Part shown: piece by piece, positions 11,438 to 47,827 of the stretch
How positions within the stretch are numbered: the stretch's first letter is position 1
How the letters are laid out: each line of letters begins with the position of its first letter
Source of the DNA: Lentinula raphanica
Lineage: Eukaryota > Basidiomycota > Agaricomycetes > Agaricales > Omphalotaceae
Length of the DNA: 64,000 bases
NCBI GenBank assembly: GCA_027919835.1
Contig: JANVFP010000023.1
Location: 186,001 to 250,000, forward strand
Direction: 5' to 3'
Made by a program: the position numbers and the translations under genes
The notes under the pieces: model-generated
Databases searched by the model: none
The model's input: the letters and a program-made list of their open reading frames with translations, nothing else
What the model was told of the DNA's origin: nothing

Positions 11438-11596
11438 GCTATCTTTCCTTTCTATAACCCAATTACATACTTGTTATGACTTGTGCATGATTTACGATAC
11501 TTGTGATGATCAATTTTCTGTTACGATTTCTTTTGTGTTGATTTCGGAAATAAGATAGGTGTTGTTACATGAATACAATGATTTGTTGCCATGGAA

Positions 11597-19299: not shown

Positions 19300-19315
19300 G
19301 ACTGATGACAACAGG

Positions 19316-19327
19316 AGACTAGTTATT
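19316..19327 (-). promoter_or_regulatory. Primer-binding site of element 1, self-priming type
   Basis: Minus strand reads AATAACTAGTCT one base after the 5' LTR. It does not start TGG, so it does not fit a tRNA CCA end. Its exact complement AGACTAGTTATT lies in the LTR at 19703-19692, where the transcript is predicted to begin. This is the Tf1-type arrangement in which the 5' end of the mRNA folds back and primes. Confidence 0.7.
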
Positions 19328-19328
19328 A

Positions 19329-20194
19329 TGTAAGGAGTTGGTTAACAACGCCGATCACGGACCCAAAGCTGGTTCACCAGGAAGTAGATTATCCTGGGGT
19401 TATCACCAATAACGGCTTCTAGAAAACACACAGACCTTTGCTGGAATATTACTTCAGCAAAGTATAAAAGGATGTGGCTACTTTGTCTGGAATATTACGT
19501 CAGACAGGTAATCACAGTTGTTGCAAGGCTGGGATGGACTTCAGGCAATGAACAAAGAGCAATCACAAAGCTGGGTTGGACGTCAGTCGATGGATTGAGT
19601 ATAAAGGCTTGCTGGGATGGACTTCAGACAAGAAAAACACAAAGTGCAGTCAAAAGATGTAGAATCAACAGTGGGTAGGTGGGGGTACAAGAATAACTAG
19701 TCTGGGATACAAAAAAGTTTCTGGGGTGTCTTATATACCAATCTATAATGCCTCATGTATGCCTCATGTATGCCTTGTGTCATGCCTCATGTCCTGGATC
19801 TGCCTCATGTCCTGCCTCCTGGAAAGCCTCATGTTGTAGGTTGCCTCATGGACTACCTCATGGGCTACCTCATGGGTTGCCTCATGGACTGCCTCATGGA
19901 CTGCCTCATGGACTGCCTCATGGACTGCCTCATGGACTGCCTCATGGGTTGCCTCATGGACTGCCTCATGGGTTGCCTCATGGACTGCCTCATGGGTTGC
20001 CTCATGGACTGCCTCATGGGTTGCCTCATGGACTGCCTCATGGGTTGCCTCATGTTGCATTTCCATGTTGGCTAAGTTGTATACTTGTTATTGCATCCAT
20101 AATTGGAAGTATTCCGGAATCCTGGCCACTGGAGGAACAAGGGTTGGAACAATAGTTTGGTGTAGTCAGGTATGCAAGTTTCTGATTCCTGACA
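19329..20194 (-). repeat. 5' LTR of element 1
   Basis: 866 bp, TG...CA, matching 7050-7915 base for base as far as I compared. The U3 12-bp array is at about 19840-20059, roughly 135-355 bp upstream of the predicted start of transcription, a position suited to an enhancer-like repeat. R-U5 would be about 375 nt. Confidence 0.93.
19692..19737 (-). promoter_or_regulatory. Core promoter of element 1 (TATA box and predicted start)
   Basis: TATATAA at 19737-19731 on the minus strand lies 34 bases upstream of AGACTAGTTATT (19703-19692), about the distance expected between TATA and start. That the sequence at the start is also the complement of the primer site supports both assignments. Confidence 0.65.
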
Positions 20195-29800: not shown

Positions 29801-30215
29801 CAGCATCTTCGATCTTAGGTGACTCGATGGCTGCATTAAGACGAGGTGCCTTCTTCCCGGGTCCTCTCTTTTTCTTCGGAGCTGTGGTCGTTTGGTGCAG
29901 CGTGGAGGCAGCGTGGCCTAGACGATCACGATTGGCTTGTTGAATAGCGGTGATACTCTGTGGGAAGGATGATGGTGCCGAACTCGAAGAGGAGCGCGAA
30001 GGTCCGCTGTCATTGGTTCTAGCAGTTACCGACGAAAGCATCGATAGTGGTGATACATAAGATGAAATGGGCTGGATTGCCTGGGATTGTGGCTGAGAAT
30101 CAGAACTCGGACTTGTGTTTGAAAGTGCTGCAAGGGTCATAGCCTGCGGAAAACTGTGGTTGGGAGGAGCAGCAGCCACCGAAGGTGCAGGATTGGGAGC
30201 AGCCATCAAGGGCGC
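26821..30215 (-). pseudogene. HECT-like gene, 3' part (interrupted by a MITE and by element 2)
   Basis: Continues from the 5' part at 47455-47827. Exon 30215 to about 29717 ends PRLTPDECM at a GTGCGT donor; the next exon begins TYGLPVELHHYLQNRDAF. Later exons give an acidic middle (DEDEIELGCRKEDSNDEAEV), then a HECT N-lobe-like region (LFGAAIGLALVHGTYPANVN) and, past the MITE, PELYLNLTRWIALDHTDND and a C-lobe-like exon with MFCWATTGTPHILTDGEPIE. After a last intron the frame ends DADPMYFTLQDH and stops at 26821. The region that would carry the catalytic Cys is not present. HECT ligases transfer ubiquitin; this one would be inactive even before the insertions if the early stop is real. Family assignment is moderate. 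Confidence 0.55.
27681..28004. mobile_element. hAT-type MITE, 324 bp, inside a HECT-like exon
   Basis: Ends CAAGGGTCTTCA and TGAAGACCCTTA form an 11-bp inverted repeat one base in from each tip. The 8-bp sequence GAAACAAT at 27673-27680 is repeated at 28005-28012, the duplication length of hAT elements. The interior is almost entirely made of ACCTGCAGGT/GACCTG units on both strands, so it can fold extensively. Removing it and one target copy restores an open frame (LVLQLFPELYLNLTRW) in the host gene. Confidence 0.85.
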
Positions 30216-31914
30216 TAACGAGGTATAAAGTCGGTTCTTAGTATAATGCCTTATGACAGGTCACTTAGCACGAACACAGAGTACGACTTCACGGATTCGT
30301 CAATCAAATTGTGTTTATAGCGAGGTGTGGGGCGTTGTCAGAGATTCCGCACTATCTTATATCTCAAGTCGAACGCAGTCTTGTAAGATCTTTTAGATCA
30401 GCAATACTGGTCAGCAGAACGAAGTGACACGGATATACCAGTCGTAAGATCTGGACTAAAGGGTTTGTTTTGAGTGGCTTCCACTCGGATAAGGGTTTTT
30501 AGGCTCGGAAAGCAACGGGGTACCAGACGTTATGGTAGACCAATCGATTCCGCTCCCGGGTGAAGCAGTACTGATCACTATTCTCAGTAAAACCTCGAAG
30601 ATCACGCAGATCACCAATCACTACGTGTCAACTTGAACAGAGCCACCAAAACTCTGCACGTTCACTCGGCACAACCTGAGACCAAGTCCTCTGTATCTCC
30701 GGAACGGAGTCTACCTTCAACTAGCAAGTGACAGACACCAAGTCAAACCACTCAAAAGTCGGGCTTATCGCGATGAAGTAACACACTTAATCTGCAAGGT
30801 CCGGTACGGCTTAGAAGCCTTTACTCCCACGTATGGATGAAAAGGATTACCAGTTCAGAGAGATCTGGGCGCGAAACTTGTTTCATTTGTGCGGATACAG
30901 GTCTTTAAGTACACTACGAAAAGTCCAATACCCGTATTTGTCCTTGATCTAGTAGATCTAGCTATTTCTACGGACGGAGTCCGATAATATACACTTAAAT
31001 AGTAAAATATGACTGAAACGATACAAACACGCAAGGAAATAGTAAAGAAAACAGCGAAAAAGATGAAACTTGTCCGTATTTTGTCGTACTTTCGCCAGAT
31101 CTAGAAGACCAAGCAAGTTCCGACCATGGTCTGTGCGGCATCCACATGCTAGGGTGCCTAACTCGTCAGAGTGGCTCCTGCCTGTGTTGCTCAAGTGTTT
31201 CCGACGAATTTGCTTCCGCGGAATGGTAGTGGTCTTCCCAAGTTAATGAGATAGACTTGTAACAGCGGTTGATCTCGCGGATCAGGTAGGTCTGGTCCGT
31301 AGCTTTCGAACGGTATGCATATAGCCTGGTGTTCTGGAGCGGACAACGAAGATAAATGCTTCAGAAGTGTTTTCCGTAGGTTTCCGCGCGTTTCCGTGAG
31401 TGCTGGTCAAAGCTGTACATAGCATACGCTATATCCCAGTTTAGAACTTGAACATATGCGTGTTTCCGCTGCGGGTTTCACCCGTACTGCCACGGAAATA
31501 CTAGATCATCATGTCTCCGACGGTTTCCGCTACTTTGCGTAGGGTTTCCGTGTGGTAACTCGTCCGGATAGGCTCTCATCGTGTCTGATCTGCTAGATCA
31601 AGTGAAATTTCCGTCATCACAGCCAAGTACCAAACTCAGTTGTGCCGATCCGGCAGATCTTGATACTAAGTCGATATTCCCTTGGTGTGCTCGTACCAGT
31701 AGTCAGCATTCTTGAAGGATCCCCGACCAAGGGTGCGAGCAATAGCTCTAAGTGGATATTCATGGCTGATCCTGCCAAAGGATCTGTATCCTAGCTTATA
31801 CTGATACAAGTTTGACTGCTAGTTCGGGCTCACTACAGTCCTTATTGATACTATGCAACGGTCTAAGTTGATCTTTTTGATCATTGCACGCCTGCGCGGA
31901 AAATCCGCGCAACA
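30216..31914 (-). repeat. 3' LTR of element 2
   Basis: 1,699 bp, repeated at 45756-47454. At its element-5' tip lies a perfect 8-bp stem palindrome TGCGCGGA-aaa-TCCGCGCA (31893-31911), three bases from the end integrase must recognise. It contains four GATC-N5-GATC motifs and many TTTCCG words. Confidence 0.92.
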
Positions 31915-31925
31915 TCTCCCCCAAA
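31915..31925 (-). promoter_or_regulatory. Polypurine tract of element 2
   Basis: Minus strand TTTGGGGGAGA directly abuts the 3' LTR, as expected for the plus-strand primer. Confidence 0.75.
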
Positions 31926-32373
31926 CTAAAGATCTGACCGTCCCCGGTCATCGCTATGGGTAGTGTAGGCTCGTATCCCTTGAAAGGAGTGGTACTGTAG
32001 CTGATCCGACAGATCAATCACTTTTCCGCAATATTCTGACTTGATTATACCCGGTGATCTAACAGATCAAGTTGATCCGTTGATCTTAGCACCCGTACCG
32101 ACAACTCCGCTGTCCTCTTGTCGAAGTCGCTAAGTCCTCGGTTTGTTATCGGCGCTTAATTTCCGAGTGTGATATCATGACGTAAATCACGCTTCTAATT
32201 CTATCACATCACATACACACTTCCTCGAAACAACTTCTTTTCAACATTTTACATACTATCCCTATGCCTAGGCCTGGGATTAGTAAGTGCTGACAAAGGT
32301 TCAACGGACTTGGAAAATTTTCTAAGTTCGTTTCTTTCTTTCTCCTCCCATCGTCGTCCACGTCTTCGACACG
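31926..32373 (+). promoter_or_regulatory. Leader/promoter region of antisense gene A
   Basis: No frame of note. It contains two GATC-N5-GATC motifs (32003, 32056), and the 40 bases before the start codon are CT-rich (tcgtttctttctttctcctc), the usual look of a highly expressed fungal start region. Confidence 0.5.
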
Positions 32374-35072
32374 ATGGCGTCGTCCTCGAAGGCTTCCACC
32401 TCGAAAGCAACTTCGTCCAAGAAGAAGACCGCGGCTCCAGTCCCTGTTCCCCCTGCTCGCAAGAAGTTTTCTGTTCGGCCGGTAGATACGCTGGATCTCG
32501 ACGCAGTACACCATGTCCATTTCGATCGGTCAGTCCGAGAGCTGGGGAAGCTGTCAGGCGACTCCGATGCTTTGTTTCTACCGGCTTCGGCTGAGGAGTG
32601 CTCCATATTGGTCAACCGCTGGAAACACCTTCCCAACAGTGCCAGCCCCGCCTTCAGCCTCCGACGCTACTCTCATCCTGATGAGGTAGATTTTAAGGCA
32701 CTCACTGAGCAGGACACCAATAATCAAACGCCAACTACCTTTTACCCCCCCCAGTTAACCTCCTTCTGCACAACTTTTGCTACTGGCTCCCCCTCTTCCG
32801 GCGAGGCGTACCAGTTGTACCAAGCCCTGGCCTTTTTACAACGCGGGTGCTCACGACTTATTCGCGGTCATCTTGCTAAGGCCGAGATTCATCGTCGACT
32901 TTTGGCCTTTACCGGAACTCCCAACTTTTCCTATAGCTTGGTGAGTCCTTCCTTTTGCTCTGAATATAGGCCCCTCGTTCTCATCTCATGCTGTAGCAGT
33001 ACTACCAACTGTTCTGGCATGGCCATCGGAACTGTCCCTTGGTTGCTCCTCTGCTCGTCATCCTCATTTGCGAGTTCTGTGAGGAACATTTGACCGAGAG
33101 CGAGTATGCTGCTCGCGTTTATGATCCTCGTATCCGTGATGGTCCAGGAATGAGTTTGAAGACCAGGGAACGGCTGCTCGAAGACATTACGGAGTTCTTT
33201 GAGCTTCAGGACCTCGCCATCCCCTTGCCCTTCGACCCCTCGACTCGCGAGGGCCAATTAATCCTTTCCGTGACCAGCAAAGGTTCTCGCGTAGATCGCA
33301 TCCTCCATCCCGCCTCTAACCAACCCCAGTTCCCGGATCCCTCTTTCCAGATTAGCTTTCCACCAGCAGCTCCCGCGGCTCCCACCGTTAAAGCCCGGCT
33401 TCGTCCTCTCTCGCCTGATTTTGACGCGGTTCCGCCTCACACTTCTCCTATCCCGGCACCGGCCATACGCAAACCTCCCCAGAAGCTACCTGTCTCTCCT
33501 GCTAGGATGGATGTGGATGACGAGGTAGAGGCTACTACGCCTGAGGTCTTCAAAAGCCCCGGAACCCCAGATGTCTTGGTGATTCGTCAGAGCCTAGCCC
33601 GTACCGCGAAAACCAAACCCAAAATCCCTGAGGAGTTTCGCAAGGCTCTCGCCCCAGTCGCGAAACGTGAGCGGTCTCCGGCTGGCGTACCTCCCGAACC
33701 CTCGGTTCCCGAACCTCCTTCCAAGAAGCGTCGCACGATAAAGGCTGGTGGTAAGACTCGAGCCAGCTCCTTCATCTCCACCCATGACGATGCCCCGGTG
33801 TTCGTCGAAAGAGAACGTTTGCGAATCCAGGACGGCGAACCCGATTATTTTCACGGGGACGACGAGGATGTGACTGCCCATAGTCGTTTCCTCACTAACC
33901 CGCGTTTCCAACCCAAAACCCCCTTTTCTGAGCTGATCCGTAAAACTACGGATGCCAACAAGCGGGGCTATAAACCTCCTTTCCTCCGGCCTCCCAAATG
34001 GAACGTTTCCGACGAGTTGAAGGATTTCGGAGCCTTCGCCAACATTGGTGACACCAGCTTTTCACTCCAGGGTTTGAGTCGTTTCGGCTACGCTAGTTCC
34101 CGGTTTCTTTGGCCTACCAATAATCGCACGCTGCCTTCCCCAGAATCCCTCTATTCTACCAATAATTGCGTGACCTGTATCAGTCGCGGGGAGGTATGCG
34201 AGGCCAGTGACAAACATGGCGGGGCCTGTCGTCAATGCAATGGTACCCACCGCTCGTGTCCCAGTTGCCTTTCTTTGGAAGAGCACAAAGATCGATTCCT
34301 GGCCATTCATAACCATATACAAGGTTACCCTGTTGGTAAGTTTTCGAGTCTTCTCTTCCTTTTTACTCGTTCCACCGCTAACTACCTTATTTCAGGTTAT
34401 GCTCATTCCCTCGATCAGTATGCTACTGCCCTCGATCACATCACCAAGCTCCAGTCCACCTTTGCCCCTCTCTTTCAGGATGCCCAGCAAGCCCTCTTGA
34501 AGAGCATGCAGACGGTTCGTAGCTCCGGCTTCGACCTGAACGTCGTGCTTTCTCGGTGGGCTGAGGACAACCCCAACCTTCCGCTGGACTACGACATCGT
34601 CACTTGGCTGGCTACCTTCTTCGGCTGGGATTCTTCGTGTAACCTCGTCGATTATCTGAGCAATCCCGAGGACCGGGAACGTCTGGAAGCGTTTATTCGT
34701 GAAAATCTTCCGGCTCCGGCGGATCCTGTAGCCCCCGCAGCTCCTTCCCTCATTTCTCCTGCCCCTCTGCCAGATCTCAAGGCTATCGAATCCTCTCCTA
34801 CGTCCCGTCGTCGACCTGCCGCGGCGACTCCCATTAACTTCGTTTCGGATGGCGAGTTCCATACCCCGCTGCCTGAGTCCACCACGGTCGATGACGAGCT
34901 AGAAGACGATGCTGAGAATGACGAGATTGAAGAGGCGGTGTCGCAACCTTCTGCGGGGCGGAGCCTCCTGGCTGAATATGATGATGAGAGTGACGACGAC
35001 GACGATCCTGACATCGAGATTATCAATGAAGACGCCTCGGGACTTTCTAAGCCCATAAAGACTCGTAAGTAA
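32374..35072 (+). CDS. Antisense gene A of element 2, Zn(II)2Cys6-like protein
   Basis: Three exons opposite to pol: 32374-32940, 33000-34335, 34396-35072. Introns of 59 and 60 nt, GT...AG; total 2,580 nt, exactly 860 codons. The 859-aa product starts MASSSKASTSKATSSKKKT, has a helical N-terminal part (EAYQLYQALAFLQRG; YYQLFWHGHRNCPL), long basic/proline-rich linkers with an NLS-like SKKRR, and at about 34167-34266 a cysteine cluster C-x2-C-x6-C-x9-C-x2-C-x6-C (CVTCISRGEVC...CRQCNGTHRSC), the spacing of fungal Zn2Cys6 DNA-binding domains, although the usual basic residues between Cys2 and Cys3 are mostly missing. It ends in an acidic tail (DDESDDDDDPDIEI). A nuclear DNA-binding regulator acting on the element itself is a reasonable hypothesis, not shown. 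Confidence 0.78.
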
Positions 35073-35799
35073 TACAGAGAACGGACTCCCATTCTGAGCC
35101 TCCTATATTCCTTTGAGTACTTTATCCGAACTTTGTATATAGCCAACATCTTGCTCGATCTCTAGACATCACCTAGTAGATCATACTTTTGTTTGCCAAT
35201 GACCATGCCCTGAGGGCTTTCTTCTTGAATCCTGTGTCTGATCCCTCATTGAGCCCCTAAGTGTTTTAAAAGACCTCAGAGTTCTCCCTTAAGTTTCCTA
35301 AGTTGCTTCAATCTCCTGAGGCTTCCTCTAGGTGAACCTCTAAGTTTTAGTTCCTTTGTCCTCACCCAACACCTGTTATAACACTATAAGTCCTTTATGG
35401 ATACCAGGTTGTTCTCCCACAAGTTTGTCTTTTGACCTTTCCAACGCTTTTGCCTGACTTTGTCATTCATGAAGCACGAATTTCGGTCTGATCTGCTAGA
35501 TCATTTTGATCTGCTAGATCAAACCCATCAATGTTGATTTTTCGGTTATCAAGTTGGTGGTTGCAGCCTCATATGGCATGTTAAATCCATTGGGCTTTTC
35601 AAATTGCAAGCTGCGTCGGTTTTAGATCTAAGTTTTTGCGTTGTACGCATGCTTAAGCTGTCAATGAGCACAGGTCTTTCAGATCTCGTAAAATTTTCAT
35701 GAAAATTTCTGAAATTTCGAAAATTCTTGAAACACCGTGTGTCCCCTCCCCCAGACTAAAGCTCAGCAGTCCCCTGCTGACCCGAAGCATCGGAAAAGG
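35073..35799 (+). other. Spacer between antisense genes A and B
   Basis: No frame of note. 35220-35430 is AG/CT-biased with repeated words (cctaagt, cctctaagttttag). A doubled GATCTGCTAGATC motif at 35490-35520 lies 280-310 bp upstream of the gene B TATA box. Confidence 0.5.
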
Positions 35800-35807
35800 T
35801 ATAAAAG
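35800..35807 (+). promoter_or_regulatory. TATA box of antisense gene B
   Basis: TATAAAAG 50 bases upstream of the gene B start codon, preceded by a C-rich stretch (cccctcccccagac). It implies the antisense gene has its own promoter and is not a read-through product. Confidence 0.65.
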
Positions 35808-35849
35808 CCCTTGATCTAAGAGATCCGACTCCCAACTCAACGAAAAAAA

Positions 35850-37870
35850 ATGGCTCCCAACTTCGAATACCACAATCTCCCTATCTCGCTTGAAGCTGAC
35901 TTTGCCAACTGGTGCGTCGACGCGGAGTACTGGGCTGCTCGTGTTAGCGATGACAAGAGCCTGGCCTGGCAAGGTGCCAAGTACAGTTCTAGCAAGGACA
36001 AGGTCGAGTTCACCACGTCCAACAAAACGATCTTTTTGAACGATGTTCGTTGCGCGTATACTCATTTGGTACGGAAATCGTTTGATCTGCTAGATCTAGC
36101 AAAATTAACCATTTTCCGTTAGCTCATTCGAGTGTCCCGCGACGCTGCGTGTATGAACAAGGAATATCTGCGGGCGTACGACAATCTCGCGGAGGAATTA
36201 CTTTCCGCCGTGAATGCGTACCGCACTATCCGTGACGAGATCCCTAAGCAGTTTCCCAAACTCTCCGAAGAGGGAGGGAAGAACGCTGAGATCGTCAGTT
36301 TCTACATCCAGCTGAACGACCTTCGTCGCAAAAAGCTCCGTGAGGACCAAGGCAGACAGGGTTCTCCTGCTGTCAGTACTCGCGGACCTAGTGTTCCACC
36401 TGCTGATCCTGAAGGACCGTCGAAATCCAAGTCGAAAGGCAAGGAAGTTGCGACTGATCCAGCAGATCCAGCAGTTTCTGATGCTGATGCCAAGTTCATG
36501 GCCGAGGTGGTGCGTTTCCGCAACTATTTTCGAAGATTCGTTTATTAACTAAAGGTTCCAGGATGCTGATCTTGCAGAACATGGTCCTTCTCCTCCAAAA
36601 GGTCCTCGAGGCGCACTTGCTAACCATTTACGAGGCCGCGGACTTCCCATGCGAGGCCACTTCCGTAGTCCACGCGAGCAACGCTTTGAAATGCAAGAAT
36701 CACTGCGTATGGGTGTGCCTGTTCCGCGGTATGACCCTCCGGTAAGTATGGTACCTTGATCTGTTAGATCAGCTGCTAACGGTTTATCCAGCCTCGTCGT
36801 GCTGAACTCGTCATCGATCATATTATTGGTATGGACGAAAGGATCAAGCACGCCAAGGAGGAACGTGAAAAAGGCGAGAAGGGGAAGAAGACCGCGGAAG
36901 CGACTCCTCCTCCTCCTACCAGGCCCTCTACTCGTTCCAAAAGCAAGAAGAAATCCCCTGACGACGACCCGGCTGCTCTGGCAGATCAGGATGTCTCTGT
37001 ACGTGGCTGGTCTTGTAGATCAGACAAATTTAGGACTAACCCGTGCCATAGATGGCTGACGAAGTCGAGGATTCTACTCCTGCGAAGGCTAAGACCAAAA
37101 CCAAAAAGCGCGACACCGTCGACGACGACGATGACACTCCGAAGTCTTCCAAGACCAAGAGCAAGCGCAAACGTTCCGAACGCGATGTTGGTCCCGCGGA
37201 CGGTAATGAGACTGAGCGGGCTCTGTCTCCTCAAGCACACAGTACTGTGCATGCTGTAACCGCGATCTCCCAGCCTCGTGCTGTTGGTGAAGATCTGATT
37301 AAGAGGGTGAAGTATTCGTTGGAACTCGCGGATACCAGTGAGTACTACTGCCATTTTCCGCTTTTTCGTACGGACTTCTACGGAAACTCGTTGATCTGCT
37401 AGATCACGCATTTTTCCGTTAGATATTTTCGCTTTGCATAGTCCGGAGTTCTTCCGCAAATCTTCGTGTTACTGATTATTGTTACAGGTACCCCCGACGA
37501 TACAGATCATCGAGATCTCGTGCAACTTCTTCACAACATCGGACTCGCCCACAACCCGGAGGTTGAATCGTACACCGAAGAGCAGTACAATGCCTTCATC
37601 AACTTCCATACGACCCAACTCTTCGACTGTGTTATGAAAGCTCGTTTCTATGCACACCGTGGGGAGGCTAGTCAACGGATCATCGACAACGCCAGGGCTG
37701 CTCGAAAGGCTGGTGAACCTCTGCCCAAAGACGAGGACACCACCATGACTCCTGCCGACGTTGAAGAGGTGTACGTGTTTTCCGCACCACCGTCGCTGCC
37801 ACCCGTAATTAAAATTGCGCAGACAGACTTAGAGGATCCCGAAATGCAAGGGCCACGCTCCGCACCTTAA
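35850..37870 (+). CDS. Antisense gene B of element 2, six exons
   Basis: Exons 35850-36068, 36123-36509, 36562-36741, 36792-36998, 37052-37337, 37488-37870 join with GT...AG introns and total 554 codons with no stop (553 aa). The start codon has a fungal-style context (gaaaaaaaATGG). The N-terminal half is globular (MAPNFEYHNLPISLEADFAN; NKTIFLNDVRCAYTHLLIRV; EYLRAYDNLAEELLSAVNAY), the middle is rich in K/S/P/D with basic runs (KTKSKRKRSERD), and the C terminus is helical (FDCVMKARFYAHRGEASQRI). No known domain. Most of its introns carry GATC-N5-GATC or related words. Ends 211 bp from the pol stop, tail-to-tail. Confidence 0.78.
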
Positions 37871-38081
37871 GCAAGTGCTTATCGAGGCTGACCATCTAGA
37901 TCATCGTTCATCCTGCCCTGTCGCCTATTTTTATACCTGTACTTTTGTCAAGTCAAGTATCATTGGTAGTTTTTGAGGTAATCCAGTGGCAACTAAATCC
38001 CTCGAGTGATTATTGAGATAGAATAAGTTGAAACATCGCGGAAACTCCCCCAAACTAACTGATCTGTTGGATCAGGCATGT

Positions 38082-41000
38082 TTAGAAAGATTTCCGTCGA
38101 CCACTTCGTCGTGGACCATTCATTAGAGACGGATTCGACTCTTCCTCTTGATCTTCGGACTCAGCAGCCTTCAGATCCTCCGGATCAAGCTGTTCAACAG
38201 GCGGAACCAGTGGTGGTTCAACGGAATTCGACTGATCATCACCGGAAATGTTTATTCGAGGGACAGTACTGAAAATAAAGTCCTCCACTTCCTCAGGTTC
38301 GTCTTCCTCATCCTGTACCATAGATTCTAACTGCTCGGGCGACAGATCTATCAGATCATGTATATTTTCCGGCAGTTCAATTGGTTCGTAACGGGCATGA
38401 TGCGGGATCACACGGAAAGCACCCACTTTGTCTTTAAGTACAGTGCCATCCATTTCCGCTATGATATATGCGCCTCCTCGTGTCCTCCGGATGACAACCA
38501 TAGGTCCACGATATCGAAGGTACATTTTCCGATCCAAATTCTTCTCGATAGCAGTGTTCCGTACCTGTACTAAGGTTCCCGGTTTGAAATCCCAGTCCTT
38601 AATGGTGTACTTGTACTTTTCCTCGAAAACTCTCGCTTCTCGACGTTTGTTCTCGTCGATCCGTGATTTCATGTTCTCGACGAAGGAACGATGTTTGGAA
38701 AGAGCCTGAGCCCGGAAGCCCAGTAACTCTTCCCGTGATAGTATTCGATTTGGTGGATTGACCAAATATGTAGATTCAACAATATCGAAAGGTAGCAGAG
38801 GTTCAGTACCGGTAGCTACGAAGTATGGTGAACAGCCTAGACCTCTCCGTGCAGTAATACGATCAGCCCAAAGTATCGGTTTCAAGAAGTAGTACCATTT
38901 TGACAGATCTCCCGCACACGCTTTCGCAAGTGCTTGTCTCAGATCAAAGTGAGCCCGCTCAATCTTTCCGTTAGCTTGTGAATTGTAAGGCGATATTTGT
39001 ATTCCACGGATCCCGTATTTCTGTTCGAGCCATCTCAACATAAGCTTCATCTGTGGTGCATTGTCCGAGACCACGATTTCCGGACATCCCCATCTACATA
39101 TGATGTCTTCAAAGAACCATTCCGCGAGTGATCTCGCGTTTTCAACTCGCAGTGCCCTAGCTTCCGACCAACTCGACAATGAATCCCTTCCGTGAACGAT
39201 ATATCTGCAACCATTACTGGCCGGAGACATAACCATAGTATCGATATGTATCTTTTGGAACAAGGATGGCGTGAAGGTCACCGTTGGAGGGATCCGTACC
39301 AAAGACCTAAGTCGATCTTGGCAGGCTTGACATGTTTTCACATACCACTCCACGTCTTTCTCCAGATCAGGCCACCAAAACCTCTTTTCTAAGAAGTCTT
39401 TCGTAGCATATGTACCCTTGTGTCCTAAGGCATCATGAGCACTGTGCAATAGATACATTCGTTTTTCCGGTTCAACCACTAAACGCAGTTGATCTGTGGA
39501 CGGTTTCCGATGGAACAGTCGACCTTCCGAGTCTATTGAAAAGGACAGTGTTTTCCGGTCCATTTCCGCTCGTTGTCTCTTGTCCAACTTCGCGAATTGC
39601 TCAGCATTCGGGTCCTTAAGCCATGCTCGGATTTCCGGTAACTGCTGATCTAGACGATTTCCGCCATCCGATCTATGAGATATCGGATATTTGTGATCAG
39701 GTCCCCACGTAGCATTGTCGGGGATCGCAGTATACTGCAGAAATTGAGAGGTCAAAGGCATTCCCGAGGCCTCTAAACGTTCTTTGAGGAATGCATGCTG
39801 GATCTCTTCCTCCCGGGCAACTTGAAGATCTTCCGCAAACTCATCTTCAATGGTCTCGCAAAAGTATCCTGTCCGGGGATCTATATGATCTTTGAATGAT
39901 TCAAAGGGCAATGGATCGTCCGCTTCGTCCGCTTTGAAGAACCTAACGTTGTTGGAGTCATCTGCATCTTCTGCTAGATCCTCCTCAGTTTCCCGACGAG
40001 GGGTAGTCCAACCTCCCGGAGGTCTTCGAGACAAACCATCAGGTCCAAAGGTTGCTCCTTTGACATGAATCAAATCGAAATGGAATTTACGGATATCTTC
40101 AATCCAACGGTTGATCGTAGCGTTTGGCCCACTACTCGGATTTTCAAGCATTCCTTGAATATAGCTAGCATCCGTTTCCACCGTGAGTTTCCGACATCCA
40201 TAAAGAAGATAGTGTGTTGCTCGGAGAGCAACCTTCAAACCATAGAGTTCACGCTTAGATTGAGAAAACCGAGCTTCACGTTCATTATACGGGATGGATC
40301 CGAAGTAATTATAGTAAATCTTCGTCTGATCTACAGGATCAATCTGATAGATGTAAAATCCCGTACCCATGTAAGAACTATCCACTGCTAAGTGTGTTTC
40401 CCAGTCATATACTATGACTCTTAAGGCTGGTGCATTACGGACCCCGTCTTTCAACAGGTCCATGGCTATGACATGCTCATCCTTCCACTCAAACGGAATA
40501 TTCGCCGTTAATTTGGTCAAAGGTGAGGCTTTCTTAGCGTAATTGTGAATGAACATCCGGAGCTGACCAACAGTTCCCAGAAAGGCTCGGACCTGTGTCT
40601 TAGAAGAGCACGGAGGCCAAGTCAGAACCGTAGTTGCGATTCTATCTTCCGGTTTCTGTCCTTCGTACGTGCAACGGTGTCCAACCACTACAGTTTCAGC
40701 GCAACACAGGAATGCTTTAGGTCCCGAGAAGGTTCCGCCGCAATACCGCATCCGCTGAATGATTCGGTTCACATTTTGGAGATGCTCCCAGACAAATCGT
40801 CTGATCAAAGGATTTTCAGGAATAGTTTCGTATCCGCCCCCCGGTAATTCATAACGAGTCCCGGGGCCTCTGATAGGAACATCATCGACGTAAGGAATAG
40901 TATATTCCGGAATTTCATCTCGCATCATGTAAGTTACATCGTCATGGAATATCGGAACAGAGTTCGTCCAACCCATAGGCAACTTCACGAGACGATGTGG

Positions 41001-42257
41001 TCCGTACGGAGTTTGGAATGTCGTCAGATCTCGCGAACTAACATCGAGTGGTCGTTCATCATAACCCACATAGATATCCAACAAACCACCACAGGCACGA
41101 CCCGCAAAATGACGAGCAATATCCGCGGTAGCAGGAGGAATCCCGGAGTGTTGAATGGTCACCTTATTCAAGGGTTCCAAACTATGTACTAAACGAAGAC
41201 TCGTTCCATCCTTCTTGACCACACAAAACCATTTTGAACGATAGCTCGAGCAAGATGGTTCATAAACTCCCGCATCAATCTTATCCTTGATGATCTTACA
41301 AACCTTTTCGAAGATTCCGGGAGGAATTGGAATATTTCGTTCGACCCAGGGCTCATGAGGTATGACCGGAATTTTCACGGGAGGAAAGAAGTCCTCTCTG
41401 AATGTTCCGCCCTCGGAAGCTTCCCAAGCAAAACCCATTTCCTGCACCTTCATCATATGATGAACTAGCTTCATTTCCTCGTCCGTAAGGAAACCTTCCG
41501 CATGGTTTTTCTCGATGATCTCTTTCCGTTCTTGCGTATACCGAATACCCGGCGTGAATTCCGGAGGATGAGTTGGTAGATCTGGCAGATCAGCCAAAGG
41601 ATCCCCGTAAATGTGTCTCCGCACACGGAACTCTTCCGGTAGATCAGCCTTGACAGGGCGAACTTTCACCGCTACAGGCTTATATTTTTGAGAACCGAAG
41701 ACCGAAACTGGCTGATCTGGCAAAAACACATCATTATATGCGCATATATGCTGGTCAATCGTCTCGTTCTTGAGTTCCCAGAGCTTAACACGATGCATCG
41801 CAGCCTCCAAATCTTGGGTCATTGAAGACAATTCCGCATCTTTTGTTTGATCTACTTGATCTGTTAGATCTTCCGTGTCATCATATGGACGAGTTAACCC
41901 GTGTAAGTCTTTCCACCTAACGTCCTTTGTCATGGACTGATAAAAGGTCTCCTTCAGGTCCTCAACGGTCGGATCAGCTCTAAATCCTTCCTTCCATGGG
42001 TTGATCACACGATTTTGTTGATGATCTACACCTTTGTTCAGGTATAGTGATATGGTTTCGGCAATTCCGGGGTGTGACTTCTCGATCGTTGGCAGACAGC
42101 ACTGTACATACACGTCCGCTAATTCTTCATCGGAGAAGGTACCTCGTTTCACCTGATTCGACTCTATAACCACTTCCTCCGCTTGAGCATCCCAGTACCC
42201 ACTAAGAGCGATTTCTACCTCTCCCTGGTCGCTACTCAGATCCCAGAGGTTATTCAA
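38082..42257 (-). CDS. pol: Element 2 pol: RT, RNase H, integrase (no chromodomain)
   Basis: 1,391 codons. RT from about residue 305 (KKDGTSLRLVHSLEPLNKV) with YVDD at 456-459; RNase H with LAVDSSY and VETDASYIQGML at about 610-720; zinc finger HSAHDALGHKG...CQAC at about 960-1005; integrase with KIHIDTM, EIVVSDNAPQM and NGKIERAHFD. The C terminus is acidic (SEDQEEESNP) and lacks a chromodomain, so this is a different gypsy lineage from element 1. The ORF begins with TTG at 42257 overlapping the protease stop; expression by -1 frameshift at 42257-42263 is more likely than initiation there. Confidence 0.93.
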   Translation of the reverse strand: MNNLWDLSSDQGEVEIALSGYWDAQAEEVVIESNQVKRGTFSDEELADVYVQCCLPTIEKSHPGIAETISLYLNKGVDHQQNRVINPWKEGFRADPTVEDLKETFYQSMTKDVRWKDLHGLTRPYDDTEDLTDQVDQTKDAELSSMTQDLEAAMHRVKLWELKNETIDQHICAYNDVFLPDQPVSVFGSQKYKPVAVKVRPVKADLPEEFRVRRHIYGDPLADLPDLPTHPPEFTPGIRYTQERKEIIEKNHAEGFLTDEEMKLVHHMMKVQEMGFAWEASEGGTFREDFFPPVKIPVIPHEPWVERNIPIPPGIFEKVCKIIKDKIDAGVYEPSCSSYRSKWFCVVKKDGTSLRLVHSLEPLNKVTIQHSGIPPATADIARHFAGRACGGLLDIYVGYDERPLDVSSRDLTTFQTPYGPHRLVKLPMGWTNSVPIFHDDVTYMMRDEIPEYTIPYVDDVPIRGPGTRYELPGGGYETIPENPLIRRFVWEHLQNVNRIIQRMRYCGGTFSGPKAFLCCAETVVVGHRCTYEGQKPEDRIATTVLTWPPCSSKTQVRAFLGTVGQLRMFIHNYAKKASPLTKLTANIPFEWKDEHVIAMDLLKDGVRNAPALRVIVYDWETHLAVDSSYMGTGFYIYQIDPVDQTKIYYNYFGSIPYNEREARFSQSKRELYGLKVALRATHYLLYGCRKLTVETDASYIQGMLENPSSGPNATINRWIEDIRKFHFDLIHVKGATFGPDGLSRRPPGGWTTPRRETEEDLAEDADDSNNVRFFKADEADDPLPFESFKDHIDPRTGYFCETIEDEFAEDLQVAREEEIQHAFLKERLEASGMPLTSQFLQYTAIPDNATWGPDHKYPISHRSDGGNRLDQQLPEIRAWLKDPNAEQFAKLDKRQRAEMDRKTLSFSIDSEGRLFHRKPSTDQLRLVVEPEKRMYLLHSAHDALGHKGTYATKDFLEKRFWWPDLEKDVEWYVKTCQACQDRLRSLVRIPPTVTFTPSLFQKIHIDTMVMSPASNGCRYIVHGRDSLSSWSEARALRVENARSLAEWFFEDIICRWGCPEIVVSDNAPQMKLMLRWLEQKYGIRGIQISPYNSQANGKIERAHFDLRQALAKACAGDLSKWYYFLKPILWADRITARRGLGCSPYFVATGTEPLLPFDIVESTYLVNPPNRILSREELLGFRAQALSKHRSFVENMKSRIDENKRREARVFEEKYKYTIKDWDFKPGTLVQVRNTAIEKNLDRKMYLRYRGPMVVIRRTRGGAYIIAEMDGTVLKDKVGAFRVIPHHARYEPIELPENIHDLIDLSPEQLESMVQDEEDEPEEVEDFIFSTVPRINISGDDQSNSVEPPLVPPVEQLDPEDLKAAESEDQEEESNPSLMNGPRRSGRRKSF

Positions 42258-43744
42258 AAATTTGGTTGCGGAACTTTCTCTGCCTCCTCGTGAGTGTCTT
42301 CCCGTCTTGATTCGGGTCGCAACTGTTGAGTTGGCTGTGATACTTTTCGTTCCACCACCTTTCTTGGTGCTCTCGGTCCATGTCCTTTCGGATATGTACC
42401 CATGGTATACCGTTTTCCAGTATTCGGATCCGTAATCGTAAGTTCCTGATCACCCGATCCAAAAGTCTGAATGACACTCTCAGTTAACACATCAAACGGA
42501 CGTCCCAACAGTATTTCAAAGGGAGCCTTTTCTTGAACATGTAACTGCAAATACACTGTGACTGGTCCAAATCGAAAGGGCACATTTCGGGCTAAACCTT
42601 TGGTCCGCGCGATCCCGCCATGTACATTTTGCATCTGTATGGTGATTCCGGGATCCCAACCTAGACCTAAGCCTAACGCCACGCTCATATCGATTGCGAC
42701 TATCTGTGATCCTGAGTCCAGGAGGTTCTCTACTTCGAGATCTTCCCGATCATTCACAACAGGCCACACTGCACGGAGACCATTGCCTATGGTGGCGACT
42801 ATGGTCATATCTCGTCGTTCATCATTCTCATCTACATCACTCAAGAATGATTCTACTGGATCTACTTGAACAAACGCTCCTGCTTTCATCCCATCCCTAT
42901 CCTCGGATAATCTCTCAAAAGCCCAAGCTTCGGGTAATGCTAGATCATCCACGGAAATGACTTGTTCGTCTTCGGAATCATCATTTGAAAGTATTTCCGT
43001 AGCTAGATCTTGTTGATCAGCCAGGTTCAGCAGCATTTTCTTTCGATCTTGCGGAAGTACTCGCTTATTCCGTATCTTTCGTGCTACGATCTGCCTGATC
43101 TTCCCCGAAAGCTGTAAAGCTTCGGAAGAAGTCAATTCAATCGTCTTTCGCACTATCCGGTCAGCAAGCTCTTCCTCTAGACCAGGCGTAAACAGTTCAT
43201 TCTGCAGCCGGTATTTTGGTGCCTTCGAAGATCCCTTAGATTCAGGTATCTTTTCCGGCTTGGGTTGATTTCGAGGGTGAGGTGTAACTTCTCTGGGCTG
43301 GACATCATCAAATGGTCTTCTCGGATTTTCCGTACGAGGAGGTGACGGATCGCGGAATCGTACTTGCTTCGATTTCCGTTGATCTGTCTGATCAGGCTCT
43401 CGTCCCGAGCCTAAAGCACTCTCATCCGTTAAATCGTCAATGGTCACTGACTGTATCCTTTCCAAAGCAGCTTCCCTCAGTGATTGAGAAGAATCGGGGT
43501 CTGATCCAGCAGATCTGTCATGATTAGGCGTAGAATTGTCCAGATTGGACTTCGGTTTTTCGGATGTTTTGTTTCTACTAGGGTTATTTCGATCTATGGG
43601 TATATGCACCCCGTCGAAGCGTTTATTCTTGACGGCAGGTATTGCTTTTGGTGAGTTAGGCTTCGAGGCACCCTCATGAGTTGTTGCCTGTTGCTGAGAC
43701 CGTGTCCTTGGCCCAGAGGTCAACTCAATCATTGGATTCCTCAG
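42254..43744 (-). CDS. Element 2 aspartic protease ORF
   Basis: A separate 492-codon frame between gag and pol. The first ~300 residues are polar and charged; the retropepsin domain is near 335-440, with active site LLDSGSQIVAID, a glycine-rich flap region (NVHGGIARTKGL) and ILLGRPFDVL. An ATG exists at 43732, but the frame is continuous with gag in -1 from the GGGAAAC site, so it is probably made as Gag-PR. A separate pro frame is unusual for gypsy elements, which normally fuse protease to RT. Confidence 0.88.
   Translation of the reverse strand: MRNPMIELTSGPRTRSQQQATTHEGASKPNSPKAIPAVKNKRFDGVHIPIDRNNPSRNKTSEKPKSNLDNSTPNHDRSAGSDPDSSQSLREAALERIQSVTIDDLTDESALGSGREPDQTDQRKSKQVRFRDPSPPRTENPRRPFDDVQPREVTPHPRNQPKPEKIPESKGSSKAPKYRLQNELFTPGLEEELADRIVRKTIELTSSEALQLSGKIRQIVARKIRNKRVLPQDRKKMLLNLADQQDLATEILSNDDSEDEQVISVDDLALPEAWAFERLSEDRDGMKAGAFVQVDPVESFLSDVDENDERRDMTIVATIGNGLRAVWPVVNDREDLEVENLLDSGSQIVAIDMSVALGLGLGWDPGITIQMQNVHGGIARTKGLARNVPFRFGPVTVYLQLHVQEKAPFEILLGRPFDVLTESVIQTFGSGDQELTITDPNTGKRYTMGTYPKGHGPRAPRKVVERKVSQPTQQLRPESRREDTHEEAEKVPQPNF
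42257..42263 (-). promoter_or_regulatory. -1 frameshift site AAATTTT between protease and pol
   Basis: The protease frame reads CCA AAT TTT TGA. A AAT TTT fits X XXY YYZ directly before the stop, and slipping back one base gives TTG AAT AAC, the pol frame. This is the only link to pol I can see. Confidence 0.65.
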
Positions 43745-45312
43745 TTTCCCGACTCGTTCGTGTACACCGTAGCCACACCATTGCTAGATCTCCCTTGCAC
43801 CATTTCCGCCAGATTGGCAATGACCATCCAAGCTGGGGATCCGGCCAACTGTTCCGAGTAATCCTCATTGTCCGGGATCATCTCGTTCATCATCGTCGAA
43901 ACCTCGGGCCATCCTTTAGCCTGACCATATTTCATGATCTTTTGGTATCTACTCTCACTTCCGAAGTTATTCGGTAGCGGAGACCCATCCTTCAACTTAA
44001 GACGCTTTGGATCTTGCGGATCACGCATAATCCAACCTTTCCCTAAGAGTTCCAAGAACATTGGACAACTTTGCATCATATGGTTCGGTTCCCGACAAAG
44101 GAAACACAACATCTCAGACCTTTGACCTTGTGCGTTATTCGGATTCGTGTTAATGATTCCACGGGGAGGCCCACTGTTTCCGGGATTACTACTACCAGAA
44201 GCGACAGTATGGGGCTGCGCCCGTTGCGCAGGTTGAACATTTCCGGTCTTGATGTTAGCCAGCATTTGAGCCAACGTCTCAAGTTCCTCTTTGTAGGTAG
44301 CCTTAAGTGCTCCCAAATCTTTGACCAACACACTGTACTGATCCCTATTTGCAGCTAGTGCTCTTTCCGTTTCCTCGGAAGCCTCTCGTTTCACTTCAAC
44401 GGGCTTAGCTGGAGACCGGAAGAAATGCGAGAGATCCGGTACTTCTTCTTTGATCACCGGAGGACCACCAATCGGAACGTATACACCTCCTCTTGAATGG
44501 GTTTCCGCATTGAAGACCACGCCATCCCGACTTGTTACCGTCCGGTACAACGATTCCAAGGGTGGGTGCCTTGCTACGGCCTCTGCTGCTTCCTTGTACT
44601 CTATGAACAGATATGGATCATCGACCCGACGTTTCTCTACGCGGAAAGCAGGTACCTGCTGTTGAACCTTACGATTCACAGCTTTCCGTAACTCGTCATC
44701 GAATGCTGACAGGAAAAGAGACACCAATTCCGTGTTTCCTATCGCCGGAGGCGGTTTCAACAACTTATTGGCTTCTACCTCCATCAACAGACAGTATCCG
44801 AGCAACCTATCTCCGTCCCGGACACCCAAAGGAGCATAGTTCTGTACGATCTGCAAGAGCGTATTCTTCGAACCCATTGGTCTCCCTAAAGATGCTGGGA
44901 ACCTTTCACACAGGGAACGCAGGAAACAGTCCGCGTCTTCCCTTCCCTCCTGCGCGCCGGGAAGATGCTCGAGAGCCTGCTTGGTCTGAAGGGTCATCCA
45001 AGAAAAGATCTTTTGCATCTTCACCTTCTCGGAGGTAACTTCCGTAGCCTGGAACGTGTTCAAACAGAACCTCACCCACTCGGGGATCATGCTCGGATTG
45101 GCCAAGTCCAGGATCATAGCAGTTTTGTGCGTAAGCGGAAACTTGGTATTGTTATACTCTGCCTGTTCCGCAGGAGTCAGTTCAGGAGGACCAAGCATCC
45201 TTATGATGTCGAGTTGATCCTCCGGTCGTTTTTGTTGGGCAGCCGGGTTTGCTGGTGCGTTAGCATTCGCTCCCGCGGCTCCCTGATCATTTCCGTTATG
45301 TACTTCGGACAT
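43741..45312 (-). CDS. gag: Element 2 Gag
   Basis: First ATG at 45312 (MSEVHNGNDQGAAGANANAP); 523 residues. The capsid-like region includes MIPEWVRFCLNTFQATEV and LGRPMGSKNTLLQIVQNY. A canonical zinc knuckle, CFLCREPNHMMQSC (C-x2-C-x4-H-x4-C), is near the C terminus. The frame stays open without ATG for about 100 further codons upstream toward the primer site (..RKRATKKPSVPVYDPRNL..), so a non-AUG start and a longer Gag are possible. Confidence 0.85.
   Translation of the reverse strand: MSEVHNGNDQGAAGANANAPANPAAQQKRPEDQLDIIRMLGPPELTPAEQAEYNNTKFPLTHKTAMILDLANPSMIPEWVRFCLNTFQATEVTSEKVKMQKIFSWMTLQTKQALEHLPGAQEGREDADCFLRSLCERFPASLGRPMGSKNTLLQIVQNYAPLGVRDGDRLLGYCLLMEVEANKLLKPPPAIGNTELVSLFLSAFDDELRKAVNRKVQQQVPAFRVEKRRVDDPYLFIEYKEAAEAVARHPPLESLYRTVTSRDGVVFNAETHSRGGVYVPIGGPPVIKEEVPDLSHFFRSPAKPVEVKREASEETERALAANRDQYSVLVKDLGALKATYKEELETLAQMLANIKTGNVQPAQRAQPHTVASGSSNPGNSGPPRGIINTNPNNAQGQRSEMLCFLCREPNHMMQSCPMFLELLGKGWIMRDPQDPKRLKLKDGSPLPNNFGSESRYQKIMKYGQAKGWPEVSTMMNEMIPDNEDYSEQLAGSPAWMVIANLAEMVQGRSSNGVATVYTNESGN
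43744..43750 (-). promoter_or_regulatory. -1 frameshift site GGGAAAC at the gag end of element 2
   Basis: The gag frame reads TCG GGA AAC TGA: the same heptamer as in element 1, here touching the stop. The -1 frame continues GGG AAA CTG AGG AAT CCA ATG ATT into protease. A possible long-loop stem GAGTTG/CAACTC lies downstream. Confidence 0.72.
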
Positions 45313-45736
45313 ATTGTTGGGTAAAAACAGTCGTATCAAATCAAATGGTTCGGGTTGTAATGTAGGATCTGAACTAGATTGCGGATCTGGTCCAACAGTA
45401 GCTGCCTTCTGTCTACCGTTTCCTGGCACTACGTTAGATCTCTTCGTTACTGGTTGTTCCAAAGATGGTCTAGGAGCTCTCCCGTTATCTGGATTGCTAG
45501 TACTCGCTCTTCCGAGGTTTCTCGGATCGTAAACAGGTACAGAGGGTTTCTTTGTTGCGCGCTTTCGCTGATCTGAAGCTTGTATCGCTGGATCAAAGAA
45601 ATCTACTGAGCCCGCGTTCTTCGAAGTCCGAGTAGCTCTTGGAGCTATTTTTAATGATCAAATAAATTCGATCAAAGGCAGTAGTTTTGAGAAATCAAGA
45701 AGATCTCTCGAGTTCGACCAAAATATAGATTCCACC

Positions 45737-45753
45737 CCTCGCGGTGGGCTCCA
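45737..45753 (-). promoter_or_regulatory. Primer-binding site of element 2, tRNA type
   Basis: Minus strand TGGAGCCCACCGCGAGG, two bases after the 5' LTR. TGG matches the CCA end of a tRNA; I could not assign the tRNA. This differs from element 1. Confidence 0.6.
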
Positions 45754-45755
45754 GA

Positions 45756-47454
45756 TAACGAGGTATAAAGTCGGTTCTTAGTATAATGCCTTATGACAGG
45801 TCACTTAGCACGAACACAGAGTACGACTTCACGGATTCGTCAATCAAATTGTGTTTATAGCGAGGTGTGGGGCGTTGTCAGAGATTCCGCACTATCTTAT
45901 ATCTCAAGTCGAACGCAGTCTTGTAAGATCTTTTAGATCAGCAATACTGGTCAGCAGAACGAAGTGACACGGATATACCAGTCGTAAGATCTGGACTAAA
46001 GGGTTTGTTTTGAGTGGCTTCCACTCGGATAAGGGTTTTTAGGCTCGGAAAGCAACGGGGTACCAGACGTTATGGTAGACCAATCGATTCCGCTCCCGGG
46101 TGAAGCAGTACTGATCACTATTCTCAGTAAAACCTCGAAGATCACGCAGATCACCAATCACTACGTGTCAACTTGAACAGAGCCACCAAAACTCTGCACG
46201 TTCACTCGGCACAACCTGAGACCAAGTCCTCTGTATCTCCGGAACGGAGTCTACCTTCAACTAGCAAGTGACAGACACCAAGTCAAACCACTCAAAAGTC
46301 GGGCTTATCGCGATGAAGTAACACACTTAATCTGCAAGGTCCGGTATGGCTTAGAAGCCTTTACTCCCACGTATGGATGAAAAGGATTACCAGTTCAGAG
46401 AGATCTGGGCGCGAAACTTGTTTCATTTGTGCGGATACAGGTCTTTAAGTACACTACGAAAAGTCCAATACCCGTATTTGTCCTTGATCTAGTAGATCTA
46501 GCTATTTCTACGGACGGAGTCCGATAATATACACTTAAATAGTAAAATATGACTGAAACGATACAAACACGCAAGGAAATAGTAAAGAAAACAGCGAAAA
46601 AGATGAAACTTGTCCGTATTTTGTCGTACTTTCGCCAGATCTAGAAGACCAAGCAAGTTCCGACCATGGTCTGTGCGGCATCCACATGCTAGGGTGCCTA
46701 ACTCGTCAGAGTGGCTCCTGCCTGTGTTGCTCAAGTGTTTCCGACGAATTTGCTTCCGCGGAATGGTAGTGGTCTTCCCAAGTTAATGAGATAGACTTGT
46801 AACAGCGGTTGATCTCGCGGATCAGGTAGGTCTGGTCCGTAGCTTTCGAACGGTATGCATATAGCCTGGTGTTCTGGAGCGGACAACGAAGATAAATGCT
46901 TCAGAAGTGTTTTCCGTAGGTTTCCGCGCGTTTCCGTGAGTGCTGGTCAAAGCTGTACATAGCATACGCTATATCCCAGTTTAGAACTTGAACATATGCG
47001 TGTTTCCGCTGCGGGTTTCACCCGTACTGCCACGGAAATACTAGATCATCATGTCTCCGACGGTTTCCGCTACTTTGCGTAGGGTTTCCGTGTGGTAACT
47101 CGTCCGGATAGGCTCTCATCGTGTCTGATCTGCTAGATCAAGTGAAATTTCCGTCATCACAGCCAAGTACCAAACTCAGTTGTGCCGATCCGGCAGATCT
47201 TGATACTAAGTCGATATTCCCTTGGTGTGCTCGTACCAGTAGTCAGCATTCTTGAAGGATCCCCGACCAAGGGTGCGAGCAATAGCTCTAAGTGGATATT
47301 CATGGCTGATCCTGCCAAAGGATCTGTATCCTAGCTTATACTGATACAAGTTTGACTGCTAGTTCGGGCTCACTACAGTCCTTATTGATACTATGCAACG
47401 GTCTAAGTTGATCTTTTTGATCATTGCACGCCTGCGCGGAAAATCCGCGCAACA
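45756..47454 (-). repeat. 5' LTR of element 2
   Basis: Matches 30216-31914 with one substitution seen (46347). The tip palindrome is at 47433-47451. Confidence 0.92.
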
Positions 47455-47827
47455 GCGCAGGATTAGGAGCAGCCGTTAAGGGCGCAGGATTAGGAGCAGC
47501 TGTCAAAGGCGCGGGATTGAGAGCAGCTGTCAAGGGCGCAGAATTGGGGGTAGCTGTCAAGGGTGCAGGATTGGGAGCAGCCGTAGGCGCAAAATTGGAA
47601 GCAGCCAACAAAGGCAGGGGCGCTGGAGCTGGAGCAGCTGGCAAGGGAGCCGGAGCAGGGGAAGGGGCAGAAGCTACTGGAAGATGAGGAAGCTGTGCGG
47701 TGGACGCCGATGAATGAGAGGATGCGACAGAAGGGGTTTGATTCTGCTGCAGCATTTGTATGAATAATTGAGGATTGTTGGCGAACATCGCCTGTAAAGA
47801 TTGTTGCATCCATTGCATATGGTCCAT
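47455..47827 (-). pseudogene. HECT-like gene, 5' part (cut by element 2)
   Basis: Starts MDHMQWMQQSLQAMFANNPQ at 47827. A Pro/Ala-rich region then contains about five 27-bp units coding NPAPLTAAP-like nonapeptides; element 2 inserted in this array. The same repeat continues beyond the element (MAAPNPAPSVAAAPP at about 30209-30165), giving a continuous frame TAAPNPA-LMAAPNPA across the empty site. In the present arrangement the frame runs into the LTR and stops at 47336. Confidence 0.7.

Follow-up and report, generated by a model that had tools for sequence, protein, structure and literature searches.

Why does a large fungal retrotransposon carry two multi-exon genes on the strand opposite to its own gag and pol, and what could these genes do for it? 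The element in question occupies 17.2 kb (30216-47454) of the window, by which we mean the whole 64,000-nucleotide stretch of Lentinula raphanica DNA analysed here, L. raphanica being a relative of shiitake. It reads on the minus strand from LTR to LTR and is a Ty3/gypsy LTR retrotransposon, as seen from its LTRs, the GCGC that flanks both ends as a short target-site duplication, and its domain order. The succession of gag, protease and RT-RNase H-integrase is that of Ty3/gypsy, with the protease, RNase H and integrase zinc domain above the Pfam cut-off, and the RT (E 0.1) and zinc knuckle (E 0.2) under it. Besides the polypurine tract next to the 3' LTR, similar tracts are found at 35743-35759 and 38045-38058. 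Two plus-strand genes, called A and B here, sit between pol and the 3' LTR, antisense to the element (Table 1).

Table 1. Features of the element, its antisense genes and its dyad clusters, in window coordinates.
Feature	Position	Strand	Basis or remark
3' LTR	30216..31914	-	1699 bp, 99.94% identical to 45756-47454
Seven GATC-N5-GATC dyads inside LTR	30387..31882		
Polypurine tract beside 3' LTR	31915..31930	-	read from sequence
Three GATC-N5-GATC dyads upstream of gene A (32003, 32056, 32065)	32003..32077		
Exchangeable hypervariable cassette: gene A and about 400 bp of 3' region	32374..35479	+	copy comparison; zero GATC-N5-GATC sites
Gene A exon 1	32374..32940	+	in-phase splice model
Gene A exon 2, holds the six-cysteine cluster	33000..34335	+	in-phase splice model
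Gene A exon 3 with stop; acidic tail	34396..35072	+	in-phase splice model
Cluster of three overlapping GATC-N5-GATC dyads where the cassette ends on its right, upstream of gene B	35490..35520		
TATA box of gene B, TATAAAAG	35800..35807	+	read from sequence, upstream of gene B
Gene B exon 1	35850..36068	+	in-phase splice model
Gene B exon 2	36123..36509	+	in-phase splice model
Gene B exon 3	36562..36741	+	in-phase splice model
Gene B exon 4	36792..36998	+	in-phase splice model
Gene B exon 5	37052..37337	+	in-phase splice model
Gene B exon 6 with stop; C-terminal domain kept in sister family	37488..37870	+	splice model and comparison
pol: RT (weak), RNase H, integrase zinc domain	38082..42449	-	Pfam PF17919, PF17917, PF17921
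Aspartyl protease frame	42254..43783	-	Pfam PF13650, E 2.1e-05
gag-like frame, CCHC-like motif below Pfam cut-off	43741..45657	-	
Candidate primer-binding site, TGG... just inside 5' LTR	45735..45753	-	read from sequence, inferred
5' LTR	45756..47454	-	one mismatch vs 30216-31914

The initial annotation of this locus had described both genes, with exons in phase and GT...AG introns, and its coordinates and codon counts proved right: gene A joins three exons into 859 codons and a stop, and gene B six exons into 553 codons and a stop, corresponding to the 860 and 554 codons given there. The TATA box that it had assigned to one of the genes is that of gene B, and the string TATAAAAG occurs in all 30 gene B loci, its position being known for the window copy only. 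Open three-intron models of gene A were obtained in nine further copies, and an extra intron after residue 249 splits exon 2 in nine of the ten open models, the window copy being the one that lacks it; the remaining intron positions match among the ten. Neither this missing intron nor the hypervariability of gene A described below had been remarked on in the initial annotation. Its proposal that introns of antisense genes persist because the packaged RNA carries their complement is a reasonable one and may hold; the window copy is nevertheless short of an intron present in the other models. No open model could be built for ten further gene A loci whose 5' region is conserved, as these loci have different introns or are broken. 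For this genome, gene A proteins have been deposited under Lentinula raphanica C8R42DRAFT entries, and the splice models of four other copies are letter-identical to deposited L. raphanica proteins (L015=P0017, L020=P0006, L023=P0011 and L026=P0016). Given these four identities and the nine further open models, chance frames are very unlikely.

Gene B lies within 7.5 kb downstream of gene A, on the same strand, at 50 of the 54 merged gene A places; two of the four places without it are at contig starts. Starting from pol, an opposite-strand gene B is found within 9 kb at 28 of 33 pol places, taken from the 38 rows of the pol match list. In addition, all database relatives of gene A at E values up to 1e-3 (51 in one list, and 65 in another that contains most of the first) are named L. 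raphanica. The two antisense genes are a regular part of this element family, and the one-off capture that the initial annotation had named as the outcome contrary to its reading does not apply.

Gene A carries a basic NLS-like stretch and an acidic tail besides the cysteine cluster C-x2-C-x6-C-x9-C-x2-C-x6-C already pointed out in the window copy, a set of features that fits a nuclear factor. The six cysteines are invariant in eight diverse gene A sequences, one of them from a sister family, and all six are kept in 22 of 26 deposited relatives (alignment A1); P0034 has a Phe at the fourth cysteine position, P0015, P0025 and P0037 are broken at the cluster, probably by mis-annotation, and among the five sister copies a stop takes the place of the fourth cysteine in one (C52s). 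The spacing agrees with the Zn2Cys6 (PF00172) consensus, C-x2-C-x6-C-x5-12-C-x2-C-x6-8-C, but none of the 26 relatives matches PF00172 at E values up to 0.1, nor do the gene A exons of the window at E values up to 1. Thus, of the Zn2Cys6 identity suggested initially, the cysteine spacing stands and the profile match does not, and gene A may be assigned to this family by spacing only. In the structure model of gene A (mean pLDDT 49), the N-terminal residues 44-300 are confident and helical, with low confidence over the cluster, and the cluster region modelled alone is likewise of low confidence (mean pLDDT 50); a structural search with gene A gave no convincing match. Neither a DNA-binding domain nor a gag family was found by Pfam in gene A or gene B. 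Along gene A, measured on 21 of the 26 rows of alignment A1, the linker and tails are the most variable parts (mean identity 0.40-0.45) and the surroundings of the cysteine cluster the least (0.67-0.68).

The comparison of copies reveals a marked difference between gene A and the rest of the element. In the family of the window copy (family 1), copies mostly agree at 95-99% in their LTR end, gene B and pol: among the pol matches listed, most have 97-99% identity and four shorter pieces 77-95%, and the gene B exon matches are mostly at least 90% identical, with decayed pieces down to 53%. In contrast, gene A matches are mostly 43-72% alike, apart from one 164-residue fragment at 91%. In a profile against 40 other copies (30-bp bins of aligned columns, with 3-19 copies per bin on the left and 2-39 on the right), identity starts to drop 15-45 bp before the gene A ATG and recovers 400-450 bp beyond its stop. 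On the left side it changes from 0.94-1.00 (31700-32329) to 0.82-0.83 (32330-32389) and about 0.5 (32390-32449), and on the right side from 0.56-0.87 (34900-35529) to at least 0.93 (35530-36200, except one bin at 0.89), the low values being upper bounds because unalignable stretches are not scored. The left flanks differ by 0.5-3.3% in 17 gene A pairs, and the right flanks by 0.7-4.5% in six.

We counted 19 gene A types at a 5% cut-off, and 13 at 15%, among 29 measured copies of one genome. Among the ten intact models, 37 of the 45 pairs, all between types, have pS of 0.72-0.78 and pN of 0.22-0.28, and four pairs are intermediate (pS 0.44-0.45). Synonymous sites between types are saturated and replacements are held back, which is purifying selection. 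The four same-type pairs have pS of only 0.02-0.07, close to the values of their own flanks, so that the divergence between types is old and allelic. The two element families differ in pol by pS 0.68, which would make the types roughly the same age as the family split, a comparison blunted by the saturation of pS.

The types have also moved. Gene A and gene B distances are unrelated among the 18 copies with both measured (Mantel r -0.04, p 0.63), and in one pair the gene B regions are 0.07% apart and the gene A cores 44% apart; from the window-equivalent position 35477 onwards, 2533 bp of this pair align at 99.3%, and upstream of it only a 45-bp stretch aligns. P0033 is a mosaic, which tracks P0032 at 93-100% in most windows and then P0005 at 88-100% at the C-terminus (in two windows, where the P0033 annotation departs, its identity to P0032 is 64-75%), and in P0022 and P0016 the nearest relative changes more gradually along the protein. 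One type is common to another locus-tag series (L010 vs P0005, 98.0% over 859 aa). Gene A types have been swapped between unrelated backbones, some as mosaics, and the old polymorphism of gene A sits on a backbone that was homogenised recently.

A sister family, with a pol about 76% identical to that of family 1, has the same layout. Its gene B is 32-45% identical to that of family 1 and its gene A core 36-42%, with matches to gene A of the window at 33-37%. In all ten pairs of its five copies, gene A DNA is 50-79% alike and the downstream stretch 92-96%; three of the five share gene A cores of 95-96% amino acid identity, and the other pairs are at 48-67%. Gene A sequences of family 1 and of the sister family form two separate groups, and therefore diversity grew separately in each family.

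Could this polymorphism be a neutral leftover? The backbone would then have become uniform through recent sweeps or gene conversion, and older diversity would have survived in gene A, with no selection for diversity as such, because diverged cassettes can no longer recombine internally. Uniform flanks and sharp borders are what is expected for a block too diverged to pair, and the purifying selection on gene A types is of the ordinary kind. However, so many types persist among the measured copies, one of them common to two deposited series, and the same contrast recurs in a second family whose gene A forms a separate clade, whereas drift in a multicopy element should lose types along with backbone diversity. 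Moreover, gene B was homogenised although it is equally antisense and intron-split, and the mosaic proteins indicate that diverged cassettes still recombine. We therefore consider a neutral origin rather unlikely, although it is the rival that survives best. The age and the sharing of the types would instead point to balancing selection on gene A.

The backbone carries, in addition, a dispersed sequence signal. The 13-bp dyad GATC-N5-GATC occurs 40 times in the element, with a Markov expectation of 0.6, and a single time in the remaining 46.8 kb of the window, and the preference for this arrangement is strict, with 40 GATC pairs at spacing 9 and at most five at any other spacing up to 30. The extended site resembles TGATCYnnnRGATCA, and GATCTGCTAGATC has 253 exact matches in the genome against two for the reversed control; no dyad was found at eight RT loci of other elements. 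Counting one LTR, there are 5.6 dyads per kb in the noncoding backbone, 1.6 in the coding backbone and none in the 3.1-kb cassette, and across the ten open models gene A contains no dyad in eight and one in two. The sister family has a related motif in a different arrangement, the contiguous AGATCT in a YAGATCTR context (33 seen vs 4.6 expected in 9.1 kb), and only two GATC pairs at spacing 9; in four copies, AGATCT is found four times in 10.5 kb of gene A and 34 times in 7.5 kb of flank. The change between families is partial, since family 1 too is enriched in AGATCT (26 seen vs 6.3 expected, 11 of the 26 touching a dyad) and, of the 14 sister AGATCT sites that could be aligned in pol, 5 have the same six letters in family 1. 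A dispersed, family-specific short motif of the VANC kind is thus present, its specificity being partial because both family motifs share the core AGATC.

The protein that reads this motif could be gene A itself, acting as a sequence-specific VANC-like anti-silencing factor, which is close to the concept proposed in the initial annotation. The invariant cluster with Zn2Cys6 spacing, the basic and acidic stretches and the very existence of a dispersed family motif would suit such a role, as would the enrichment in the element of the CGG-containing word CGGAAA (55 seen, about 11 expected), which is scarce in gene A (2). Yet the dyad stays the same in copies that differ in up to half of their gene A core, so that gene A is unlikely to be the motif reader; the backbone motifs are constant where gene A varies from copy to copy, and the profile search cited above speaks against it too. 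The argument weakens this role without ending it, as the cluster is little variable (mean identity 0.68) and could stay constant, and we regard gene A as a doubtful binder. The reader of such a motif would be expected to stay constant wherever the motif does and to change along with it. Gene B, which hardly varies inside a family and differs strongly from one family to the other, behaves in this way and appears to be the better candidate for motif binding, judging from the two families compared. What stands of the VANC-like concept is the dispersed motif, with its arrangement changed in the sister family, and the part of reader fits gene B better than gene A.

Selection could also act on nucleotides rather than on the protein, if antisense gene A transcripts paired with the genomic RNA into dsRNA and the resulting small RNAs silenced elements of the same type while diverged ones escaped. 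Gene A and gag-pol are convergent by position, and the 3' region of the cassette diverges too, but gene B is equally antisense and not variable, and replacements in gene A are held back, therefore the protein matters; such an escape is improbable. Hypermutation of gene A, as in diversity-generating retroelements, would confine diversity to one gene and its 3' region as observed, but it is contradicted by the low same-type pS, about equal to that of the flanks, and by variation over the whole gene with saturated synonymous sites, and can hardly be credited.

Plant Ty3/gypsy elements (Grande, RIRE2, Retand, PvRetro13) and the fungal Boty are reported to carry antisense ORFs in this same interval, after pol and before the 3' LTR (PMC7264820, PMC11963269). 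According to the cited part of PMC7264820, such ORFs occur in several plant families, and the plant ORFs are conserved about as well as other element proteins, with no function established. As far as these sources describe them, they resemble the present case in position, orientation, presence in most copies and a suspected nuclear or DNA-binding role. An own promoter was shown for Grande, and here a TATA box is predicted for gene B. What sets the present element apart is that it has two such genes, both multi-exon, that one of these is an old polymorphism which can be exchanged, and that a dyad is dispersed along the element.

VANDALs are Mutator-like DNA transposons and not LTR elements; the carrier studied here is an LTR element, and its system may therefore work like VANC but cannot be one. 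Both encode an extra protein and have a dispersed motif that is changed in a related family, as far as the accounts of VANC in Arabidopsis go (PMC5735166, PMC10398659). For VANC, binding and loss of silencing have been shown, and its motifs lie in noncoding tandem repeats (PMC5735166, PMC10398659), whereas here single dyads are scattered, coding DNA included, and their binding by a protein is a prediction. The idea of a protein and its motif changing together comes from these VANC studies.

For Ty1 and Ty1' of Saccharomyces, a diverged gene on a related backbone is described as spreading by recombination and altering who represses whom (PMC7055915). In the cited part of that work the variable gene is gag, with two subfamilies, whereas in the present element the variation falls on an antisense gene, with its 19 types (5% cut-off) in 29 copies, and pol is uniform; gene A, antisense and without a Pfam gag family, is not a gag-derived restriction factor of the Ty1 type. 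For crapaud of Podospora, too, one block is described as existing in several diverged variants while the rest of the element is common to them (PMC10787394); in the part cited, this block is the 5' half of the LTR and not a gene. We found no description of a many-typed antisense cassette in the passages cited here, nor in the titles and abstract openings of the open-access papers that our literature searches listed.

Taken together, our preferred reading is that of a large Ty3/gypsy retrotransposon with a regular two-gene antisense module, in which gene B would read the motif and gene A would be an exchangeable specificity factor under selection, and to which we assign a probability of about 0.5. 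Gene B would be the element's own DNA-binding factor; acting on those dyads that lie within the LTR or ahead of the two antisense genes, it would keep the element active in the manner of VANC. Gene A would be a partner nuclear factor, with a specificity under negative frequency-dependent selection: the host or sister copies would come to block common gene A types, rare types would spread, and recombination, whether of co-packaged RNAs or of genomic copies, would bring these onto the backbone that is best at the time. A more far-reaching version, which we put forward as tentative, is self/non-self recognition at the level of the retrotransposon, with gene A as a type-specific control or immunity locus, frequency-dependent and moved as a cassette, and with a code read by gene B (GATC-N5-GATC, or YAGATCTR in the sister family) that would mark self.

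Antisense genes in this position, past pol and before the 3' LTR, were noticed years ago and still lack an assigned function. The swapped versions of gene A suggest that a selfish element contains a system of recognition or control. An old allelic series on a recently homogenised backbone, together with a code that in both families all but stops at gene A, opens the function to experiment, with two questions in front: by which of the proteins is the code read, and is there interference among gene A types? If it is true that selection keeps the types, selfish elements within one genome would have evolved something like immunity groups.

In the main element, a Ty3/gypsy retrotransposon with gag-pol on the minus strand, the gag-like and protease frames overlap at 43741-43783 and the protease and pol frames at 42254-42449 (both within 38082-45657), so that production of a polyprotein requires frameshifting or splicing. 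The window copy of gene A, the hypervariable antisense gene, is without the intron after residue 249 (33000-34335), which is found in the nine other open models; probably this antisense gene of a retroelement has lost the intron precisely. In the related sister family, copy C52s (L073) presents a stop in place of the fourth cysteine of the cluster.

The word CGGAAA is five-fold enriched in the main element (window 30506-45296, counting one LTR), the majority of its copies being on the gag-pol strand; it is scarce in gene A, with 2 copies, and the sister family likewise has few, 6 across 9.1 kb. GATC-N5-GATC, the 13-bp dyad dispersed in the backbone of the main element, is found at one site in the gene A type of L010 and L011, the only such type among the ten open models.

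Insertion of the main element seems to have split a host frame that encodes Pro-Ala-rich repeats, with 27-bp units at 47455-47581; similar minus-strand frames flank the element on both sides (window 29685-30260 and 47336-48049). The window holds a second LTR element, whose LTRs (7050-7915 and 19329-20194, 866 bp each) are 100% identical; in both, TGCCTCATGGAC forms a tandem array of 12/24-bp units. Inside this element there is a minus-strand match to RT at ~13820-14299.

Coordinates of the second LTR element and of the polypurine-tract-like stretches
Feature	Window position	Strand	Remark
Second LTR element	7050-20194		LTR pair
Polypurine-tract-like stretch (CTCCCCCAAACTAA or variant)	31915-31930	plus	at LTR
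Polypurine-tract-like stretch (CTCCCCCAAACTAA or variant)	35743-35759	plus	between gene A and gene B
Polypurine-tract-like stretch (CTCCCCCAAACTAA or variant)	38045-38058	plus	directly past pol

The last two polypurine-tract-like stretches may be additional priming sites, or marks of how the two-gene module, formed by gene A and its near-constant antisense neighbour gene B, was acquired.
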